This document shows positions 11,531 through 19,874 of a stretch of 64,000 nucleotides of DNA, piece by piece; positions within the stretch are counted from its first letter, which is position 1, and every line of letters begins with the position of its first letter. Source of the DNA: an uncultured Flavobacteriaceae bacterium (GTDB lineage: Bacteria > Bacteroidota > Bacteroidia > Flavobacteriales > Flavobacteriaceae); the NCBI GenBank assembly GCA_947502635.1, contig CANNAN010000015.1, forward strand, positions 1 through 64,000. The letters are read 5' to 3'. The position numbers and the translations under genes are program-made. Below the pieces are notes generated by a model that had not been told where the DNA came from, did not search any database, and saw nothing but the letters and a program-made list of their open reading frames with translations.

Positions 11531-12085
11531 TCAAAACCAATTTTCTTTTAAGCAATCTGCCATAGCTGTACGTGCCCTGTGAATGATTACCCAAAGGTTA
11601 GACGCAGTAATATTTAATTCATTACAAATGGCTTCAGTTTCAAAGCCTTGAATTGTTTTCATTTTAAAAACGTCTGCTTGTTTCTCTGGCAATTTCCCTA
11701 AGCATTTATAAATAGCATCACTTAGCTCACTGTTTTGCATGGTGTCTTCTGCCGTTTTATCAAACGGATCAGCAACACGTTCTTCTAGCCAATCGCCTTC
11801 TGTCTCAGAATCATCATTATAGCTAATACGTACTTCCGCTTTACCTTTGTTTGAATTTATTTTGCGATAGTGGTCTATAATTTTTCGCTTTAAAATAGAG
11901 ATAAGCCAAGTACGCTCACTGGCTTCTCCTTTAAAATTTTTCATAGATTTTAAACCAGCTAAAAAAGTATCTTGTACCAAATCTTGTGCAATCTCTCTAT
12001 CACTAACACGTGTAATCGTGTAGTTGTATAGGTAATCGGAATATAAATCGATCCATTGGTTAGGATTAATTTGATGATTGGGCAT
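11531..12085 (-). CDS. ECF-type RNA polymerase sigma factor
   Basis: This 184-residue protein has region 2 (LYSDYLYNYTITRVSDREIAQDLVQDTFLAGLKSMKNFKGEASERTWLISILKRKIIDHYRK) and region 4 (LPEKQADVFKMKTIQGFETEAICNELNITASNLWVIIHRARTAMADCL), with no regions 1 or 3. A small Cys/His protein follows immediately and is the probable anti-sigma partner. The gene carries a TAnnTTTG element within a 23-bp palindrome in its upstream region. The target regulon cannot be read here. Confidence 0.9.
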   Translation of the reverse strand: MPNHQINPNQWIDLYSDYLYNYTITRVSDREIAQDLVQDTFLAGLKSMKNFKGEASERTWLISILKRKIIDHYRKINSNKGKAEVRISYNDDSETEGDWLEERVADPFDKTAEDTMQNSELSDAIYKCLGKLPEKQADVFKMKTIQGFETEAICNELNITASNLWVIIHRARTAMADCLKENWF

Positions 12086-12230: not shown

Positions 12231-12635
12231 TTAAAATGATAGTGTTAAAAATATAGCACTAAAATATATCCACAATATTGAAAATAAAATATGTATTAAT
12301 GTTTCAATTTTTTTCCCTCTCCAAAGATCTGATGAATAAACAAAAAACTGAACAAATAATCTAACAACCCAGAATATGCCCAAGCCAAGTAATATTTTTT
12401 TACCAAGATGAGTTTCGATTAATTCAGTTGAAGAAGTCAAACAAAGTAAACCCATTAGAAATACGGTAAAGGCTATAAAAAATGTGTGGACAGTCATTAT
12501 TTGTTTATTTATTAAACTCAAAGACTTTAACTCTTTTTTCCAGTTAAAATATTTTGGAAAGACAATATGAATTAAAGCCAAAGCAATTAAAAGAACACCA
12601 ATTATTTTAAGATGAATATACATTTTATAAGACAA
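12231..12635 (-). CDS. small four-helix membrane protein of unknown function
   Basis: The 134 residues contain four hydrophobic segments (near 8-26, 46-66, 80-98 and 113-132) with HIVFPKYFNWKKELKSLSLINKQIMTVHTFFI between the first two. The pattern is conserved-looking but I do not recognise a named family. It is the last gene of a minus-strand operon with the membrane methyltransferase, DUF2071 and DoxX-like genes, 15 bases after the preceding stop. A role with membrane-bound intermediates is inferred from neighbours only. Confidence 0.55.
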   Translation of the reverse strand: MSYKMYIHLKIIGVLLIALALIHIVFPKYFNWKKELKSLSLINKQIMTVHTFFIAFTVFLMGLLCLTSSTELIETHLGKKILLGLGIFWVVRLFVQFFVYSSDLWRGKKIETLIHILFSILWIYFSAIFLTLSF

Positions 12636-12650
12636 TTTAGAATTAAAAAA

Positions 12651-13403
12651 TTAAGGACGAATATTGAATATAGACATAAATGGCGTGAATTTAGTTTCTG
12701 AAAATGAAGAAAAACCAGCACTTTTAAACGCCTTTTTCCAAACTTTCTTTGAGAAAAAATGTGTAAAACCAACAGAAAAAGCTAAAAAGTTTGGGAAATC
12801 ACGCAGATGTTCTACCATAATTAATTTTCCATCTGGTTTGCATATTCTCAAACATTCCTTTAAAAAAAGCACCTTTTCTTCGTGTAATCTTATTTCATGT
12901 ACTGCTGAGAGAAGAAAAATAATGTCTATTGATTTATCTTTTAAAGGGATTAAATTTGATTTTATTTGTTTTGTGTTAGGGTATACTAAACTTACTTTTC
13001 TCGCTCTTATTATTGCCTGTTCTGTATGCTTCTTAGCATTATAAAAATCAAATACTTTTAATTCGGATTTTGGAAATTTGTTTTTAATAATAAAGCTTGT
13101 TTCATCAAAACCTGCATTAATATTAATGATTTTTTTTGTATTTAAATTATTTGTTTTACAGTGTTTTAACCAATGAAAATTATAATATCCAGAAAAGTCA
13201 TATATGTAAGCCGATACTATTAGAGGCATTATAAGACCATAAAGAAAGGCTATTATAATTAGCCAATACAAGATGTTTGACCATTCTAACACTATATGAC
13301 TTACTATTATTATTAATATAAAGCATATACCAAATACATAAAAGTGTCTATTAAAACTTAAAATATTTAAGACACCTTGAAATTTTTTTCTTCTTATTTC
13401 CAT
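12651..13403 (-). CDS. membrane-anchored SAM methyltransferase
   Basis: The 250 residues start with two hydrophobic helices (residues 22-40 and 46-68). A class I methyltransferase domain follows: KKIININAGFDETSFIIKNKFP as a degenerate motif I, LKVFDFYNAKKHTEQAI as strand two, IIFLLSAVHEIR at motif II, and ECLRICKPDGKLIMVEHLRD. The canonical GxG is replaced by NAGFDE, typical of small membrane-lipid methyltransferase relatives. The start overlaps the end of the DUF2071 gene by ten bases, so translation is coupled. It likely acts at the inner membrane face on a lipophilic substrate. Confidence 0.65.
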   Translation of the reverse strand: MEIRRKKFQGVLNILSFNRHFYVFGICFILIIIVSHIVLEWSNILYWLIIIAFLYGLIMPLIVSAYIYDFSGYYNFHWLKHCKTNNLNTKKIININAGFDETSFIIKNKFPKSELKVFDFYNAKKHTEQAIIRARKVSLVYPNTKQIKSNLIPLKDKSIDIIFLLSAVHEIRLHEEKVLFLKECLRICKPDGKLIMVEHLRDFPNFLAFSVGFTHFFSKKVWKKAFKSAGFSSFSETKFTPFMSIFNIRP

Positions 13404-14131
13404 TGTTCAATCTTAGCTTTTTTCCAATAGTATGGAACATTATTTATTATGAAAGCATTTGCTAAAACTTGGTTTTCAAGTTTGAGAGTGTTTAAAAACT
13501 CAAAATTATAATTGATAACATTTATAGGTGTGGGTTTCCAATTTTGCCTCACGCCTTCAATAATTAAGACTTCTTTGGTTTCTTTGTTATATGTGAAAGT
13601 GAAAGGAAGTGGACCTGCAAATCTTCTTGCTTGTTTCCAATTAAGAAAAGGGGATTGTTTGGGTAAAGAGATTTCTTTATCTATTTTGTCTATTAAGATT
13701 TTAAATTTTGAGTTAATCGAGGTTATTTCATTTGTGGTTTTTTGCTTTATCTCATTAATATCAGTAGTTGTATAATTATAGTGTGTGAAAATGTTGCCCA
13801 TAAATGTCATTTTCTTTTTGTCTGTCTCAGATTTTAAAATGTATAAACCACGTAAATTTTTCCCTGTATTGGTTTTGTAACGAACAAAAACACGATAACC
13901 AATTAAGAAAAAGTTGTTTCCCATAAATTGAGGAAAACCTTTAGGCCTCAAATCTTTTGTCTTCACCATAGCAACTGCAATAAAAGCCCATTTATCTTGA
14001 AAAGTATCTAACTGTAAACATTCTGGAATAAGATTTTGTAATTGTTCTTTTTCTACCGCTAACGTTAAGACCAGAGAGCTTTTAAAAAAGGCTTCAACAG
14101 CAAATGGATGTTTTTTTAGAAATGAAAACAT
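13394..14131 (-). CDS. DUF2071 family protein
   Basis: This 245-residue protein begins PFAVEAFFKSSLVLTLAVEKEQLQNLIPECLQLDTFQDKWAFIAVAMVKTKDLRPKGFP, the usual N-terminal pattern of DUF2071 (YqjF-like, acetoacetate decarboxylase-like fold). FFLIGYRVFVRYKTNTGKNLRGLYIL follows. Family function is not established. It lies nine bases after the DoxX-like gene and overlaps the methyltransferase, as the second gene of the operon behind the GbsR/MarR operator. Confidence 0.7.
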   Translation of the reverse strand: MFSFLKKHPFAVEAFFKSSLVLTLAVEKEQLQNLIPECLQLDTFQDKWAFIAVAMVKTKDLRPKGFPQFMGNNFFLIGYRVFVRYKTNTGKNLRGLYILKSETDKKKMTFMGNIFTHYNYTTTDINEIKQKTTNEITSINSKFKILIDKIDKEISLPKQSPFLNWKQARRFAGPLPFTFTYNKETKEVLIIEGVRQNWKPTPINVINYNFEFLNTLKLENQVLANAFIINNVPYYWKKAKIEQWK

Positions 14132-14140
14132 AATGTTTTA

Positions 14141-14521
14141 TTAAGTTATTTTTTTATTAAGATTATACTCATTATAGTAAATTATTAAAATAAGCATAAA
14201 AGCAAATAATGAATTGAATTTACCCCAAAGTAATAAGTCAGGTGCAAGAATAAATTCTAGAATATTCATTGTCCCAATAACAATAATTTGAATTATGGTA
14301 TTTAATTTTGTCTTATATTCAAGTATAATCCAAATAGCCATAATGATTTCTGATATTCCTATTATTATAGTTAAAGGTCTTGAATTGTAATTTTCTAAAA
14401 TCCTTGAAACAATTTGTTCATGTCGAGGAACAAGACTCAGGATCTTACAAAACAGCCCGTTTATAATCCATATTGTAGCTATAGAATAGGTTAATATTTT
14501 ATGAATTTTTCTTTTTGTCAT
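14141..14521 (-). CDS. DoxX-like membrane protein
   Basis: The 126 residues form four hydrophobic helices with WIINGLFCKILSLVPRHEQIV in the first loop and LTIIIGISEIIMAIWIILEYK in the second, as in DoxX-like (DoxX_3) proteins. It is the first gene of the four-gene operon; a predicted operator lies 20 bases before its ATG. Biochemical function of this subgroup is unknown. Confidence 0.65.
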   Translation of the reverse strand: MTKRKIHKILTYSIATIWIINGLFCKILSLVPRHEQIVSRILENYNSRPLTIIIGISEIIMAIWIILEYKTKLNTIIQIIVIGTMNILEFILAPDLLLWGKFNSLFAFMLILIIYYNEYNLNKKIT

Positions 14522-14540: not shown

Positions 14541-14566
14541 AAACTTTCAGAAATTATTGAAATATT
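14541..14566 (-). promoter_or_regulatory. predicted GbsR/MarR operator, operon copy
   Basis: The 26 bases begin AAACTTTCA and match the perfect operator at 15114-15139 at 23 of 26 positions. The right arm is degenerate (TGAAATATT instead of TGAAAGTTT). It sits 20 bases before the DoxX-like gene, in its promoter region. Binding is inferred from the shared sequence and from flanking the regulator gene. Confidence 0.6.
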
Positions 14567-14579
14567 ATTTTAAATTTTT

Positions 14580-15089
14580 TTATTTAATGAGTTTAAGTAA
14601 AGATTTAGTGATCCAGTTTTGTTCTTGGTTAACAATTTTGTTCATCATAGCATCTGCTGTTTCAGCCAAATCATGTAACGCTTTGGTTTGTTTAATAAGC
14701 TCTTTTGTTTTTTCTGTGCCATCATCTTTAATGGAACTAACATCCTTTAATATTTTTATCACAGGTTTAATTTCTCTTCTACTTCGCTCTTTAGCAATAT
14801 GCCTTGCCAATTCTTGTACATCTTTTTCAGTAGTAAAAAACTCTTTACGTTCGCCTGGAATAAGTTCTTTTGTAACGATCCCCCAATCCATAAGCTGACG
14901 TAAATTCATGCTGGTATTACCACGAGAAATTTTTAATTCCTTCATGATTTCTTCCATTGACAAGGGTTTCGTGGAAATAAAAAGAAGTGATTGGATTTGA
15001 GCCATGGCTTTATTTATACCCCACAAGGTGCCTAAACTCCCCCAAGTGCTTATAAATTTATCTTTTGCTTCTTGATATTCCATTTCCAT
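14580..15089 (-). CDS. GbsR/MarR-family transcriptional regulator
   Basis: The 169 residues contain a winged helix: GTLWGINKAMAQIQSLLFISTKPLSMEEIMKELKISRGNTSMNLRQLMDWGIVTKELIPGERKEFFTTEKDV. This is the pattern of GbsR-type regulators, which normally repress. A C-terminal helical region (residues 95-165) would dimerise. Its promoter -7 box ends four bases before the ATG, so either the message is nearly leaderless or the Met at 15083 is used. A perfect palindrome overlaps the -33 region and recurs in front of the downstream operon, suggesting autorepression plus control of the four genes behind it. The ligand is unknown. Confidence 0.82.
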   Translation of the reverse strand: MEMEYQEAKDKFISTWGSLGTLWGINKAMAQIQSLLFISTKPLSMEEIMKELKISRGNTSMNLRQLMDWGIVTKELIPGERKEFFTTEKDVQELARHIAKERSRREIKPVIKILKDVSSIKDDGTEKTKELIKQTKALHDLAETADAMMNKIVNQEQNWITKSLLKLIK

Positions 15090-15093
15090 GAGA

Positions 15094-15101
15094 CAAAGAT
15101 A
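15094..15101 (-). promoter_or_regulatory. -7 element of the GbsR/MarR regulator gene
   Basis: On the minus strand TATCTTTG matches TAnnTTTG and lies four bases before the first ATG. The adjoining operator at 15114-15139 covers the -33 position, as expected for repression. Confidence 0.6.
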
Positions 15102-15113
15102 TAAATAATTTCT

Positions 15114-15139
15114 AAACTTTCAGTAATTATTGAAAGTTT
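15114..15139 (-). promoter_or_regulatory. predicted GbsR/MarR operator, autoregulatory copy
   Basis: AAACTTTCA and TGAAAGTTT form perfect nine-base arms around an eight-base AT-rich, nearly symmetric centre. The site overlaps the -33 region of the regulator's own promoter. Confidence 0.65.
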
Positions 15140-15174: not shown

Positions 15175-16170
15175 TTAAAAACTAACTAACTCCCTATTAT
15201 ATTTATTTTTATATGCTACTGGTGTTAAACCTGTAAACCTTTTAAATAAGGTTCTAAATGCTTTAGTGTCTGAATACCCCACAGAAAACATAACTTCGTT
15301 TACTGTATTTTGTGTAGATTCCAAAGCATTTTTAGCTGCTTCAACTTTTACTCTTTGTATATATTCTAATGGTGTATTGGCAGTTGCTTTTTTAAACCGC
15401 CTTATAAAGTTGCGTTGACTCACCGCTAGCATGTCCGATAGGTGTTCTACTGAAACTTTTTCGGTAACATTATTTTCTATAAATAATTGTGCTTTTTGGA
15501 TAAGAGTATCTGTATGCTCTTTTTGACCTCTAAAAATGGCAAATTGATTTTGGTTGTCCCTGCTAATATCTATTTCGAAAAGCTTGGATACATAAACAGC
15601 AGCTTCCTGTCCGCAATATTTGTATACTAAATGCAGAATAAGGTTTAGAAATGAGTAAGCACCACCACTGGAATAAATACCTTCTTGATCTGTGACTATT
15701 TTTTCTGGTACTACGTTAATTTTAGGATACATCTGTCTGAACAAATCGATGCCAGCCCAATGCGTTGTGCATTGTTTGTGGTCTAATAACCCTGTTTCTG
15801 CTAGTAGAAAAGCTCCGAGGCATAAACTGGCTACTTCGGCATGATGTTGAGTGTGCTGTTGTTTAATCCATGGAATGAAGGCAATATTAGCTTCTATGCC
15901 TTCCGCAATCCATTCTGGTTTGACAGCCGAAATTATAATAAGGTCGGTTTTAGAAATATCGTATATGGTAGCATCGCAATGTATGGAAAACGCGCCATCG
16001 TATAGAACAGTATCTTTATCAATACCAACAAGATTTATATCAAAGAATGGTTGTTGACTTTTCCCTGTTTGTATAATGAAGTCATTGACACTTTTAAAAA
16101 TTTTATAAGGTCCAACAACACTACTTAGGATCGTGTTAGATTTTGGAACCAATATACTCACATGTTTCAT
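15175..16170 (-). CDS. GlxA-type AraC regulator with DJ-1/PfpI domain
   Basis: The 331-residue protein has an N-terminal DJ-1/PfpI-like domain (VSILVPKSNTILSSVVGPYKIF; ASLCLGAFLLAETGLLDHKQCTTHWAG, where Cys sits at the nucleophile elbow). A C-terminal AraC double HTH follows (VSVEHLSDMLAVSQRNFIRRFKKATANTPLEYIQRVKVEAAKNALESTQNTVNEVMFSVGYSDTKAFRTLFKRFTGLTPVAYKNKY). Such proteins sense small metabolites and usually activate neighbouring genes. The divergent genes at 16308 onward are possible targets. It is unrelated in sequence to the adjacent GbsR-type regulator. Confidence 0.88.
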   Translation of the reverse strand: MKHVSILVPKSNTILSSVVGPYKIFKSVNDFIIQTGKSQQPFFDINLVGIDKDTVLYDGAFSIHCDATIYDISKTDLIIISAVKPEWIAEGIEANIAFIPWIKQQHTQHHAEVASLCLGAFLLAETGLLDHKQCTTHWAGIDLFRQMYPKINVVPEKIVTDQEGIYSSGGAYSFLNLILHLVYKYCGQEAAVYVSKLFEIDISRDNQNQFAIFRGQKEHTDTLIQKAQLFIENNVTEKVSVEHLSDMLAVSQRNFIRRFKKATANTPLEYIQRVKVEAAKNALESTQNTVNEVMFSVGYSDTKAFRTLFKRFTGLTPVAYKNKYNRELVSF

Positions 16171-16278
16171 TAGTTATAGGTCTTAAATAGTTGTGATTTT
16201 AAAAGTAATATTAAATTTTGTCATAATCAACACCTAAAAGTGTCGTATTTGACCTCTTAGAAACATGTATTCTTTTTA

Positions 16279-16286
16279 TAATTTTG
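16279..16286 (+). promoter_or_regulatory. -7 element of the 16308 gene
   Basis: TAATTTTG matches TAnnTTTG. A TTG codon in frame at 16284 lies inside this box, so the translation start must be downstream, at ATG 16308. Confidence 0.55.
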
Positions 16287-16307
16287 AAAACACCCTTAAA
16301 TAGCCTA

Positions 16308-16628
16308 ATGGAGCCTAAAGAGTATTTCGAAATTATAAGAGTTCAGTTTTGTTCTAATAACAAACATGTAACTGAAGGCAAAATGATGCGTTCTGAAGCT
16401 ATACACTATAAAGGAAAAGTATTTGCATTTTTTTCTACCAGAGAGAAAATGGTGTTTAAACTTGGAAAGAGTTTTAATATTCATACGATTGATGCTCCTT
16501 TAGAAGTATTTAGTCCATTCAAAAATAAAAAACCTATGTCAGGATGGTATCAATTGGGAGCCGAATATAGCGACTTCTGGGAACCTTTAACAAGACAGGC
16601 ATTAGATATAATACATGAAGACAAATGA
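16308..16628 (+). CDS. small TfoX/YjbR-like protein
   Basis: ATG at 16308 is preferred because the in-frame upstream TTG lies in the promoter box; the product has 106 residues. The block KMMRSEAIHYKGKVFAFFSTREKMVFKLGK followed by a MSGWYQLGAEYSDFWEPLTRQALDII tail resembles TfoX N-terminal or YjbR-like folds, but the match is judged by eye. No signal peptide or membrane segment is seen. Its stop overlaps the start of the DUF2461 gene by four bases (ATGA), so the two are translationally coupled. Confidence 0.5.
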   Translation: MEPKEYFEIIRVQFCSNNKHVTEGKMMRSEAIHYKGKVFAFFSTREKMVFKLGKSFNIHTIDAPLEVFSPFKNKKPMSGWYQLGAEYSDFWEPLTRQALDIIHEDK

Positions 16629-17281
16629 TAACAAAAACGTACACCGATTTTTTTAAAGAGCTGAAAGGAAATAATAATAAAGAATGGTTTCATGCTAATA
16701 AGAAACGTTATGAAAATGATGTTAAAGGCCCTTTTTTAGAGTTACTTTCAGAATTACTTCCGATACTCCATGAATGGGATAATCGAATTCTAACAGATGG
16801 AAAGAAAGCTTTGTTCAGAATAAATAGAGACGTAAGGTTTTCAAAAGATAAAACGCCTTATCATACCATCTTAAAAGCAGGGTTTTCTCCTAATGGTAAA
16901 AAATCGATGCTGCCAGGATATTATTTAGGTATTAGTGCAGATACAGTTCATGTTGGAGGTGGTTTATTTACTGTTAAACCACCTGAATTAAAAGCGGTAA
17001 GAAATTATATTGCCAATAATGTTGATGATTTTTTAGCGATAACAAATGCAAAAGAATTCAGTAACTGTTTAGGAGTGTTGAAAGGTGACGTTTCTAAACG
17101 TCTTGATAAAACACATGAAGTTGTAGCAAATAAAACACAATTAATATATAATAAACAGTTTTATGCGATGTCCGATCTTTCGTTGGCAAATTATTATAGT
17201 TCACCAAACCTAAAAGATGACATAATGAAGCATTTTAATGCTATAAGGCCTTTAAACGAATTTTTAGATGCCGCATTTTAA
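16625..17281 (+). CDS. DUF2461 family protein
   Basis: This 218-residue protein contains FFKELKGNNNKEWFHANKKRYENDVKGPFLELL and ALFRINRDVRFSKDKTPYHTILKAGFSPNGKKS, followed by PGYYLGISADTVHVGGGLF. These are hallmarks of DUF2461 (TIGR02453). The family is widespread but has no established biochemical role. Cytoplasmic by composition. Coupled to the upstream small gene by an ATGA overlap. Confidence 0.85.
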   Translation: MITKTYTDFFKELKGNNNKEWFHANKKRYENDVKGPFLELLSELLPILHEWDNRILTDGKKALFRINRDVRFSKDKTPYHTILKAGFSPNGKKSMLPGYYLGISADTVHVGGGLFTVKPPELKAVRNYIANNVDDFLAITNAKEFSNCLGVLKGDVSKRLDKTHEVVANKTQLIYNKQFYAMSDLSLANYYSSPNLKDDIMKHFNAIRPLNEFLDAAF

Positions 17282-17341
17282 AATATTTTATCCAAATTAG
17301 AGATTATTTAAAGCATATTAATTATAAATTCAATTAAAATT

Positions 17342-17713
17342 ATGACAACACAACAAGTTGCAGAACAGTTAGTAAATTATTGCAGACAGGGAAATTTTGC
17401 TGAGGCTACTCAAGCATTATATGGACAGAATATTGTTAGCATAGAACCAGATGGTGCGCCTGTTAAAGAAACGAAAGGTTTAGAAGCTGTTATAGCTAAA
17501 GGGCAACAGTTTAATGATATGGTAGAGGAGGTTCATGGTATGGAGATATCTGACCCTATTGTTGCAGATAAATTCTTTTCATGTACTATGAAAATGGATG
17601 TCACGTTTAAAGGAGCGCCTCGAACTAATATGGATGAGATTTGTCTTTATACCGTCGAAAATGGTAAAATAGTGAGAGAAGAGTTCTTTTTTACACCTAT
17701 GCAGCAAGGGTAA
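17342..17713 (+). CDS. SnoaL-like / NTF2-fold protein
   Basis: The 123 residues begin QVAEQLVNYCRQGNFAEATQALYGQNIVSIEPDG and end with FFFTPMQQG, the common layout of SnoaL-like polyketide-cyclase-fold proteins of the NTF2 superfamily. Such proteins are ligand-binding or isomerase-like; no catalytic pair is obvious here. Cytoplasmic. It stands alone with its own upstream gap of 60 bases. A long REP-like hairpin follows and may end the transcript. Confidence 0.75.
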   Translation: MTTQQVAEQLVNYCRQGNFAEATQALYGQNIVSIEPDGAPVKETKGLEAVIAKGQQFNDMVEEVHGMEISDPIVADKFFSCTMKMDVTFKGAPRTNMDEICLYTVENGKIVREEFFFTPMQQG

Positions 17714-17834: not shown

Positions 17835-19874
17835 CTATTTCAATAACCCTGCCCGTTTTAATAATGCTTCAGGCTTAGGTTCTTGTCCTCTAAAGCGTTT
17901 GTAAAGAGTCATCGGGTTTTCAGTTCCACCTTGAGACAAGACATGATCTTTAAATTTATTGGCGACATCTTTATTAAAAATACCTGCTTCTTTAAAATAT
18001 TCGAAGGCATCAGCATCTAAAACCTCTGCCCATTTATAACTATAATAGCCAGATGAATAACCACCTTGAAAGATATGAGAAAAAGAAGTACTCATACAGT
18101 TCTCTATAACTTCTGGATAAAGGGTTGTATTTTTAAACGCTTCAGTTTCGTGTGTTTTAACAGATGTTATGGTTTCTGGAGACTCACTAGCATGCCAACT
18201 CATATCTAATAAACCAAAACTTATTTGTCTAAGTGTTTGCATGCCTTCATGAAATGTTGCAGATTCTTTTATTTTTTCAACCAGATCCATCGGGATCACT
18301 TCTCCAGTTTCATAATGAGTAGCAAACAATTCTAAAGCTTCTTTTTCGTAGCACCAGTTTTCCAAAACCTGACTTGGCAGCTCAACAAAATCCCAAAATA
18401 CGCTGGTTCCAGATAAACTAGGGTAAGTTGTGTTTGCTAACATGCCATGCAACGCATGACCAAACTCATGAAATAAGGTTGTAACCTCGTTGAAGGTTAA
18501 AAGAGACGGCTTGCTCTTTGTCGGTTTTGTAAAGTTGCATACAATAGATATATGCGGTCTGTCATTGATGCTGTTTTTTATAGACTGTGGTTTGTACGAT
18601 GTCATCCACGCACCATTTCGTTTTCCTGCTCTTGGGAAAAAATCTGCATAAAAAATAGAAATTAAATCACCACTATTATTAGTTACCTTATAAGTTAAAA
18701 CATCTTCATGATACGTATCTATGGTATCTATTTTTTCAAAATTTAGATCGAATAATTTATTGGCAACAGTAAAAGCACCATGAATGACGTTTTCTAATTT
18801 GAAATAAGGTTTTAACTTCTCATCATCAAGACTAAATAATTTCTGTTTTAATTTTTCAGAATAATACGATCCGTCCCATTTTTCAAGTTGGTCAATACCA
18901 TCTAATTCTTTAGCAAAACTTTCGAGATTTTTAAATTCACGTTCTGCGGCTGGTTTTGCTTTTTCAAGCAATTCATTTAAAAAGTTTTCAACAGTTTCGG
19001 GTGTTTTTGCCATGCGCTCTTCTAGAACAAAATGAGCATGCGTTTTATAGCCCAAAAGGTTAGCGCGTTGAAACCTTAGTTTTACTATTTGTAATACATT
19101 TTCTTGATTATCCAGTGCGTCACCTTTAAATGCTTTTGCTCCTGCAGCAAGCGCCAGCTTTTTTCTTAATTCCCGATTATCAGCATAAGTCATAAAAGGA
19201 ATATAACTAGGATAATCTAATGTAAATAACCAACCTTCTTTTTCTTTAGATTCTGCCAGTTGCTTAGCAGTTTCTTTGGCGCCATCTGGCAAACCAGATA
19301 AATCATTTTCGTTAGTAATATGCATTTCAAAAGCATTGGTCTCTGCCAATACATTTTCTCCAAACTTAAGTGTTAACTGACTTAATTGTTTGTCAATATC
19401 TCGAAGTTCTTGTTTTTTATGCTTAGCTAAATTAGCTCCATTTCGTGAAAAACTTTTATATCTTTTATCAAGCAATGTTTGCTGCTCTACAGTCAAATCT
19501 AATGAATCTTTAATATCATAAACGGCTTTTATGCGTTTAAATAAATCTTCGTTTAAAGTAATATCATTACTAAACTCAGATAATAATGGTGATACTTCTT
19601 GTGCTATTTTTTGAATAGCATCATTTGTTTCAGCTGAATTCAAATTAAAAAAGATACTGGAAATTCTATCTAATTGTTCTCCTGAAAAATCTAAAGCTTC
19701 AATCGTATTTTTAAAAGTTGGGAAGTCATTATTGCAAACTATAACATCAATTTCAGATTTAGCACTGGTAATAGCTTGTTTAAAAGCAGGTAGGAAATCC
19801 TCATTGGTGATTTTTGAAAAAGGAGCTGAATTATATGCAGTTTCAAAAGGTTTTACTAATATGTTTTTTGTCAT
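17835..19874 (-). CDS. M3 family metallopeptidase (oligopeptidase/dipeptidyl carboxypeptidase type)
   Basis: This 679-residue protein carries the M3 zinc motif FHEFGHALHGML near residue 467, with the downstream Glu in the SGTSVFWDFVELPSQVLENW segment as third ligand. The C-terminal FSHIFQGGYSSGYYSYKWAEVLDADAFEYF block supplies the substrate-binding Tyr/His of this family. No signal peptide is present, so it should degrade cytosolic oligopeptides. Whether it acts as Dcp-like dipeptidase or OpdA/PrlC-like endopeptidase cannot be decided from sequence. A short palindrome (19903-19920) lies about 30 bases upstream of its ATG. Confidence 0.93.
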   Translation of the reverse strand: MTKNILVKPFETAYNSAPFSKITNEDFLPAFKQAITSAKSEIDVIVCNNDFPTFKNTIEALDFSGEQLDRISSIFFNLNSAETNDAIQKIAQEVSPLLSEFSNDITLNEDLFKRIKAVYDIKDSLDLTVEQQTLLDKRYKSFSRNGANLAKHKKQELRDIDKQLSQLTLKFGENVLAETNAFEMHITNENDLSGLPDGAKETAKQLAESKEKEGWLFTLDYPSYIPFMTYADNRELRKKLALAAGAKAFKGDALDNQENVLQIVKLRFQRANLLGYKTHAHFVLEERMAKTPETVENFLNELLEKAKPAAEREFKNLESFAKELDGIDQLEKWDGSYYSEKLKQKLFSLDDEKLKPYFKLENVIHGAFTVANKLFDLNFEKIDTIDTYHEDVLTYKVTNNSGDLISIFYADFFPRAGKRNGAWMTSYKPQSIKNSINDRPHISIVCNFTKPTKSKPSLLTFNEVTTLFHEFGHALHGMLANTTYPSLSGTSVFWDFVELPSQVLENWCYEKEALELFATHYETGEVIPMDLVEKIKESATFHEGMQTLRQISFGLLDMSWHASESPETITSVKTHETEAFKNTTLYPEVIENCMSTSFSHIFQGGYSSGYYSYKWAEVLDADAFEYFKEAGIFNKDVANKFKDHVLSQGGTENPMTLYKRFRGQEPKPEALLKRAGLLK

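Follow-up and report, generated by a model that had tools for sequence, protein, structure and literature searches.

A MarR-type regulator and its paired putative operators head a variable set of membrane-linked genes in Bacteroidia

When a regulator gene and the operon behind it carry the same palindrome, does the palindrome mark one dedicated pathway, or a switch that heads other genes in other species? The question is posed by a locus in the window, by which we mean the whole stretch of 64,000 nucleotides analysed here, from an uncultured Flavobacteriaceae bacterium. A sequence-only reading of this DNA had described a GbsR/MarR-type regulator and a four-gene operon sharing one operator, and had taken them for a self-contained membrane-associated pathway with its own switch. 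The observation holds; it is strongly conserved and reaches further than that reading supposed. The notion of a dedicated pathway is weakened, and the finding is that the genes behind the switch, its cargo, are swappable.

A regulator between two copies of one palindrome

The regulator gene (14580..15089, minus strand) encodes 169 residues; its relatives mostly begin at the second ATG (15083). Pfam matches the protein to HTH_5 and MarR_2, and NCBIfam to CudC at 52 bits, under the equivalog cut-off of 218. By profile its best relative is MJ223 (E 2.8e-25), and its predicted model (mean pLDDT 89.6) retrieves 1ku9, the structure of MJ223, as the first Foldseek match in the PDB. The proposed GbsR/MarR type is thereby supported: by similarity, the protein is a GbsR member, a MarR-type winged helix protein in the range of 150–180 residues akin to MJ223 and GbsR. 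The osmotic subgroup is marked by aromatic residues that form a cage around choline or betaine close to the linker. In the regulator, aligned without any GbsR sequence, W16, W23, W69 and F85 are invariant and positions 88–110 hold no conserved aromatic cluster. Neither osmolyte synthesis or transport nor cydAB appears beside the regulator in the Pfam and NCBIfam assignments for the five genes of this locus and for the cargo representatives.

The upstream operator O1 (15114..15139, AAACTTTCAGTAATTATTGAAAGTTT) has nine-base arms without mismatch around a spacer of 8, and a pattern check bore out both its position and its perfect arms. The downstream operator O2 (14541..14566, AAACTTTCAGAAATTATTGAAATATT) has 2 mismatches between its arms, repeats O1 at 23 of 26 positions, as had been described, and ends 19 bases short of the DoxX start codon. 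When up to 3 mismatches are allowed, O1 and O2 are the sole matches in the window; shuffled windows gave a mean of 0.39 matches and reached two in 6 of 100, which makes the count only mildly surprising. The whole genome holds 18 sites at the same tolerance, compared with 22 for the reversed control. A 1-mismatch site at G000:C1:388562 sits within a long coding frame and is therefore probably a chance match. Such counts are insufficient alone, and the weight of the claim rests on position and conservation.

As to position, a probable -7 promoter box of the regulator, TATCTTTG (15094..15101, minus strand), begins 12 bp past O1 and matches TANNTTTG, which we take to be the -7 promoter consensus. 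In 136 of 148 loci, TANNTTTG begins 11–13 bp after the upstream site. The -33 triplet, CTG here and TTG in most relatives, falls within the right arm of O1; both features agree with the earlier placement of O1 over the -33 region. A -7-type box at constant distance past O1 is what autorepression leads one to expect, and binding at O1 should block the regulator's own promoter. With one palindrome over the regulator promoter and another before the putatively regulated genes, the locus has the layout of an autorepressed MarR-type switch.

As to conservation, we scored exact matches to the core TTTCA-N8-TGAAA on each side of the regulator gene. The core was defined after the first 29 loci had been seen; the class-wide and named sets were scored afterwards, the class-wide set having already been inspected. 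The family search covered 149 genomes, 40 of which had a match, and the 29 close orthologues (E below 1e-35) were retained; among the weaker matches left out, L045 alone was scanned and carries no site. The class-wide set comprises 40 of 128 matched genomes, hand-picked and mostly one per genus, with orthologues mostly 40–57% identical to the window regulator, and the named set consists of the best 80 of 568 relatives, which are therefore close orthologues. Both sides carried the exact core in 28 of the 29 family loci, in 27 of the 40 class-wide loci, in all 5 loci added through the methyltransferase and in all 80 named loci (the best 80 of 568). Taken singly and in the same order, the upstream core was exact in 28/29, 35/40, 5/5 and 80/80 loci and the downstream core in 29/29, 27/40, 5/5 and 80/80, the last figure of each series again standing for the best 80 of 568 relatives. 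The sole upstream miss in the family set (L095) lies on a contig that begins inside the gene. In 3060 shuffles, the core arose by chance in 0.16% upstream and 0.26% downstream. Thirteen of the 40 class-wide loci miss at least one core site, which counts against the reading that we prefer. Beside orthologous regulators the core is nevertheless kept on both sides in most loci and, together with the positions of O1 and O2, this conservation supports one operator common to regulator and operon.

With up to 2 mismatches allowed, the 75 sites in 29 genomes divide into 50 at the locus and 25 outside it; the reversed pattern has 43. Since sites outside the locus are in no excess over this control, the regulator is predicted to have one local target region, and the switch to act at one locus.

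We consider it probable that the locus is an autorepressed, local one-component switch of the GbsR/MJ223 type controlling exchangeable membrane-active genes. In such a switch, a MarR dimer would occupy the 26-bp palindrome twice, at O1 over its own promoter and at O2 before the first cargo gene, and would at rest repress regulator and cargo alike. A small ligand, perhaps set free when the membrane is damaged or its lipids change, would relieve repression at both sites, and the cargo then expressed would act on the membrane, possibly on its lipids. The conserved head (regulator, O1 and O2) stays at a mostly fixed place, and behind it species carry different, presumably horizontally exchanged, selections from about 15 families. 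Most of these are small membrane proteins, methyltransferases, desaturases, the TIGR01777 reductase, DCC1-like proteins and SRPBCC proteins.

O2 and the predicted control of the cargo

A local switch of this kind could drive its cargo from a separate promoter at O2, or a single transcript could run from O1 through regulator and cargo, with O2 serving as a roadblock or loop anchor. The latter layout is conceivable but unlikely. It would suit the short distance of O2 from the regulator stop codon (at most 20 bp in 103 of 141 loci) and the absence of a canonical -7 box after O2 in 136 of 141 loci, an absence that also counts against our preferred reading. A separate cargo promoter is favoured by a fixed T-tract 6–8 bp upstream of O2, which O1 lacks, and by terminator-like hairpins between regulator and O2, seen in 11 of 141 loci. 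Single transcription from O1 also fits poorly with further O2-like sites that precede single cargo genes. Ten such operators were found in 860 kb downstream, and 8 of them precede a cargo gene at a distance of -1 to 16 bp, compared with 1 in 626 kb of upstream control. Operator copies are thus present inside the cargo, and the genes behind them look like modules with an operator of their own. In 106 of 141 loci, O2 itself lies 12–16 bp ahead of the first ATG.

DNA looping between the two sites was rejected, as the O1–O2 distances (556–665) show no helical phasing. An RNA hairpin at O2 was likewise rejected: the outer arm positions vary, mostly uncompensated, a pattern that fits protein binding better.

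The four-gene block and the variety of cargo

The cargo in the window is a block of four genes, all on the minus strand. It begins with a DoxX-like small membrane protein (14141..14521, 126 aa; PF13781, DoxX_3, 59.5 bits, cut-off 25) and continues with a DUF2071 protein (13394..14131, 245 aa; PF09844, 56.8 bits, cut-off 27), for which a sequence search found no relative in the PDB. The third gene encodes a class I SAM methyltransferase with an N-terminal helical pair (12651..13403, 250 aa; PF08241, Methyltransf_11, 30.6 bits, cut-off 21.2). Its invariant residues lie around NxxAGFDETS, an unusual motif in a class I methyltransferase domain, and around DFY, HEIR and EHLRD. The model of this enzyme (pLDDT 87.3) matches methyltransferase folds best, the nearest solved ones being O-methyltransferases and Coq5-like enzymes at TM ~0.5, a likeness too general to name the substrate. 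The small four-helix membrane protein encoded by the fourth gene (12231..12635) occurs in every one of the 27 complete blocks and probably starts, in its conserved form, at the ATG at 12623. The first three identities, as originally assigned, are confirmed by Pfam; the four-helix protein has no match in Pfam or NCBIfam.

That these genes form a unit is supported across the family. The methyltransferase occurs in 28 of 349 genomes, and in 27 of the 28 the complete block is found in the same order, the exception (L208) being a lone distant homologue without the block. This integrity, and a shared site that would control the block here, are what speak for the original proposal, in which regulator and block evolved together and the regulator's signal is the product or substrate of the block. 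We now regard that proposal as improbable. Regulator and block do not define one another: the block lies behind the regulator in 13 of the 28 methyltransferase matches, all 13 with both operator cores, but elsewhere in 14, in varied surroundings with neither regulator nor operator (the best sites before DoxX have 6–8 mismatches). Conversely, the regulator heads this block in just 15 of 154 loci and otherwise precedes other membrane-linked cargo, and the methyltransferase is missing from G019 and G634, two further genomes in the genus of the window. Block identity also hardly tracks that of the regulator. Across the 15 regulator-side blocks, mean methyltransferase identity is 0.67 where regulators are at least 0.8 identical and 0.65 where they fall below 0.65. 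Correlations with regulator identity are 0.29 for the methyltransferase, 0.03 for DoxX, 0.57 for DUF2071, 0.43 for the four-helix protein and 0.32 for the flanking sigma factor. Such weak tracking would fit exchange of the block between loci. What survives of the self-contained pathway is the block, not its exclusive tie to the switch; a membrane association agrees with the protein families, and the chemistry stays a conjecture.

Near five of the regulator-less blocks (L193–L196 and L199) we noted attC-like half sites, several of them in L194, and in L196 the block adjoins a 321-aa gene that reads by eye as an IS110-type transposase. At regulator loci, no attC with both halves was found. The integron integrase model TIGR02249 was matched below its cut-off in 7 of 7 genomes and 14 of 14 controls, and above it in none.

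To describe the cargo more widely, we built HMMs from protein clusters of 69 loci and applied them at E up to 1e-5, with cargo ends set by hand for seven loci. Across 154 loci this gave 15 recurring families, a number from which further families are missed, given the 69 source loci. TIGR01777 is the most frequent (77 loci), followed by twin small membrane proteins (57), a CMAS-like methyltransferase (54), the small membrane protein smTM8 (46), SRPBCC-like proteins (41), DUF2071 (39), a second four-helix family (34) and DCC1-like proteins (27). DoxX is found in 16 loci, the membrane methyltransferase and its four-helix partner in 15 each, membrane-SRPBCC-like proteins in 10, two desaturase families in 6 and 4, and SDR-like proteins in 3. 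The SRPBCC and SDR labels were partly given by eye, Pfam Polyketide_cyc2 falling just under its cut-off for one and the others yielding nothing firm.

These families combine into 86 ordered arrangements among 143 loci, a count in which some arrangements may be under- or over-split. Even where two regulators are at least 95% identical, the ordered cargo agrees in only 13 of 63 pairs, and 9 of 63 have no family in common. Within genera, we counted 9 arrangements in 13 loci of Winogradskyella, 8 in 13 of Aquimarina and 14 in 19 of Flavobacterium. The order of cargo genes is largely kept: smTM8 precedes TIGR01777 by 35:0, the twin membrane proteins precede TIGR01777 by 38:3, and TIGR01777 precedes SRPBCC by 29:1, the position of DUF2071 being freer than that of the other families. 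A small membrane protein is the first recognised gene in 106 of 143 loci.

Cargo and operators occur together. An operator core is present at least once in 148 of the 153 loci that offer enough sequence for a judgement; 143 of these have recognised cargo and 5, which speak against our reading, do not. None of the 5 loci lacking a core has recognised cargo. The link is partly circular, as the family models come from the first 69 loci. The twin small membrane proteins, present in 8 of 149 family genomes, lie at the switch locus in 8 of 8; the CMAS-like methyltransferase, present in 12 of 149, lies there in 11, the twelfth being elsewhere and 31% identical. At one locus (L073, in G051), the genes for the CMAS-like methyltransferase and TIGR01777 behind the switch are interrupted by stops, indicating that cargo can decay while regulator and operators persist.

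The surroundings of the switch are steadier than its content. Outside it lie an ECF sigma factor gene on the downstream flank (11531..12085, minus strand; identified by Pfam and NCBIfam) and, as the upstream flank in relatives, a gene for a 679-aa protein (17835..19874, minus strand), presumably M3-peptidase-like. Among 73 loci with regulators at least 70% identical to this one, the same sigma factor lies downstream in 66, and the 679-aa homologue is in the fetched upstream stretch in 61, yet these loci show 45 cargo arrangements; the content therefore changes at a mostly fixed place. An ECF sigma factor gene directly follows the cargo in 78 of the 154 regulator loci. In the window, genes of AraC/DJ-1-type regulator, TfoX-like, DUF2461 and SnoaL-like type occupy 15175–17713, upstream of the regulator; the first three positions recur in L074 of the same genus, and in many relatives the 679-aa gene is directly upstream. 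In Aestuariibaculum sediminum (L276), the regulator is 57% identical to that of the window and the flanking sigma factor 83%; here the whole locus, regulator included, has perhaps been replaced.

Relation to known systems and meaning of the locus

Small MarR-type winged-helix repressors adjoining the genes that they control are known from GbsR-gbsAB, OpuAR-opuA, CydE and MJ223. The present locus differs from these in that the genes it would control are not those for making or importing osmolytes or for a cytochrome bd oxidase, and in that its cargo varies between close relatives. GbsR itself was modelled on MJ223, and 80 of 179 GbsR-type proteins fall in a heterogeneous group without an assigned osmotic or oxidase role (PMC6207618).

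Cargo with CMAS-like methyltransferases and desaturases that could protect the membrane brings to mind a Bacteroidota counterpart of the LitR-type modules against light or photo-oxidative stress. The light-inducible class II LitR clusters of Pseudomonas combine a local regulator and a short-chain dehydrogenase with UfaM, a CMAS-type furan fatty acid synthase, and with a number of proteins that are membrane-bound or unknown (PMC9758184). A light module is very unlikely here, as the same text gives these clusters a MerR-type LitR with a LOV protein and photolyase and cryptochrome genes, none of which we saw, and its cluster description, as far as available, is without TIGR01777, DoxX and DUF2071 (PMC9758184). 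Our regulator is of the MarR type instead of the B12/LOV-linked MerR type, and no photolyase or photoreceptor occurs among the named representatives, which cover a subset of the neighbours. On the available portions of the LitR papers, the link to light was set aside as a loose analogy.

Selection by phages or toxins for altered membrane targets could also drive the exchange of cargo. This would suit its fast turnover at a fixed site but is highly doubtful: no link to phages was found, and PADLOC, run on 10 proteins, returned weak matches (best mad2, 5.1e-9, 33.5 bits, then Csa3, 25.7 bits) attributable to shared methyltransferase and HTH domains, and a defence system was rejected for want of a convincing match.

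Capsule and O-antigen loci also hold variable content between fixed flanks. The local switch proposed here resembles them in its fixed flanking genes and exchangeable content, and differs in that a conserved regulator and operators head the variable part, the genes mostly keep their order and an operator of its own precedes some of them. In the literature searched, which left most subscription journals outside, nothing joined TIGR01777 or DUF2071 with DoxX, or GbsR with Flavobacterium, and neither a GbsR/MarR operator in flavobacteria nor a hypervariable MarR operon in Bacteroidetes was found; of six family names, just SRPBCC and DoxX were mentioned jointly, in unrelated settings.

Local MarR-type switches are ordinary; one so conserved, with targets rewritten between sister species, is not. 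The locus frames the questions of which signal a large bacterial class senses through it, what joint role DoxX-like, DUF2071, TIGR01777 and DCC1-like proteins play, and how an operator already in place gains new genes. For the last of these, nature has set up an experiment in how regulation is acquired: 13 copies of the block are headed by the operator and 14 are free of it. More tentatively, the locus may be a standing socket in Bacteroidia, in which the operator of a conserved sensor-repressor heads exchangeable modules, so that incoming membrane-modifying genes would share its signal at once. If this is true, the sensed stress would be constant, and the response to it would be under fast, perhaps arms-race, selection.
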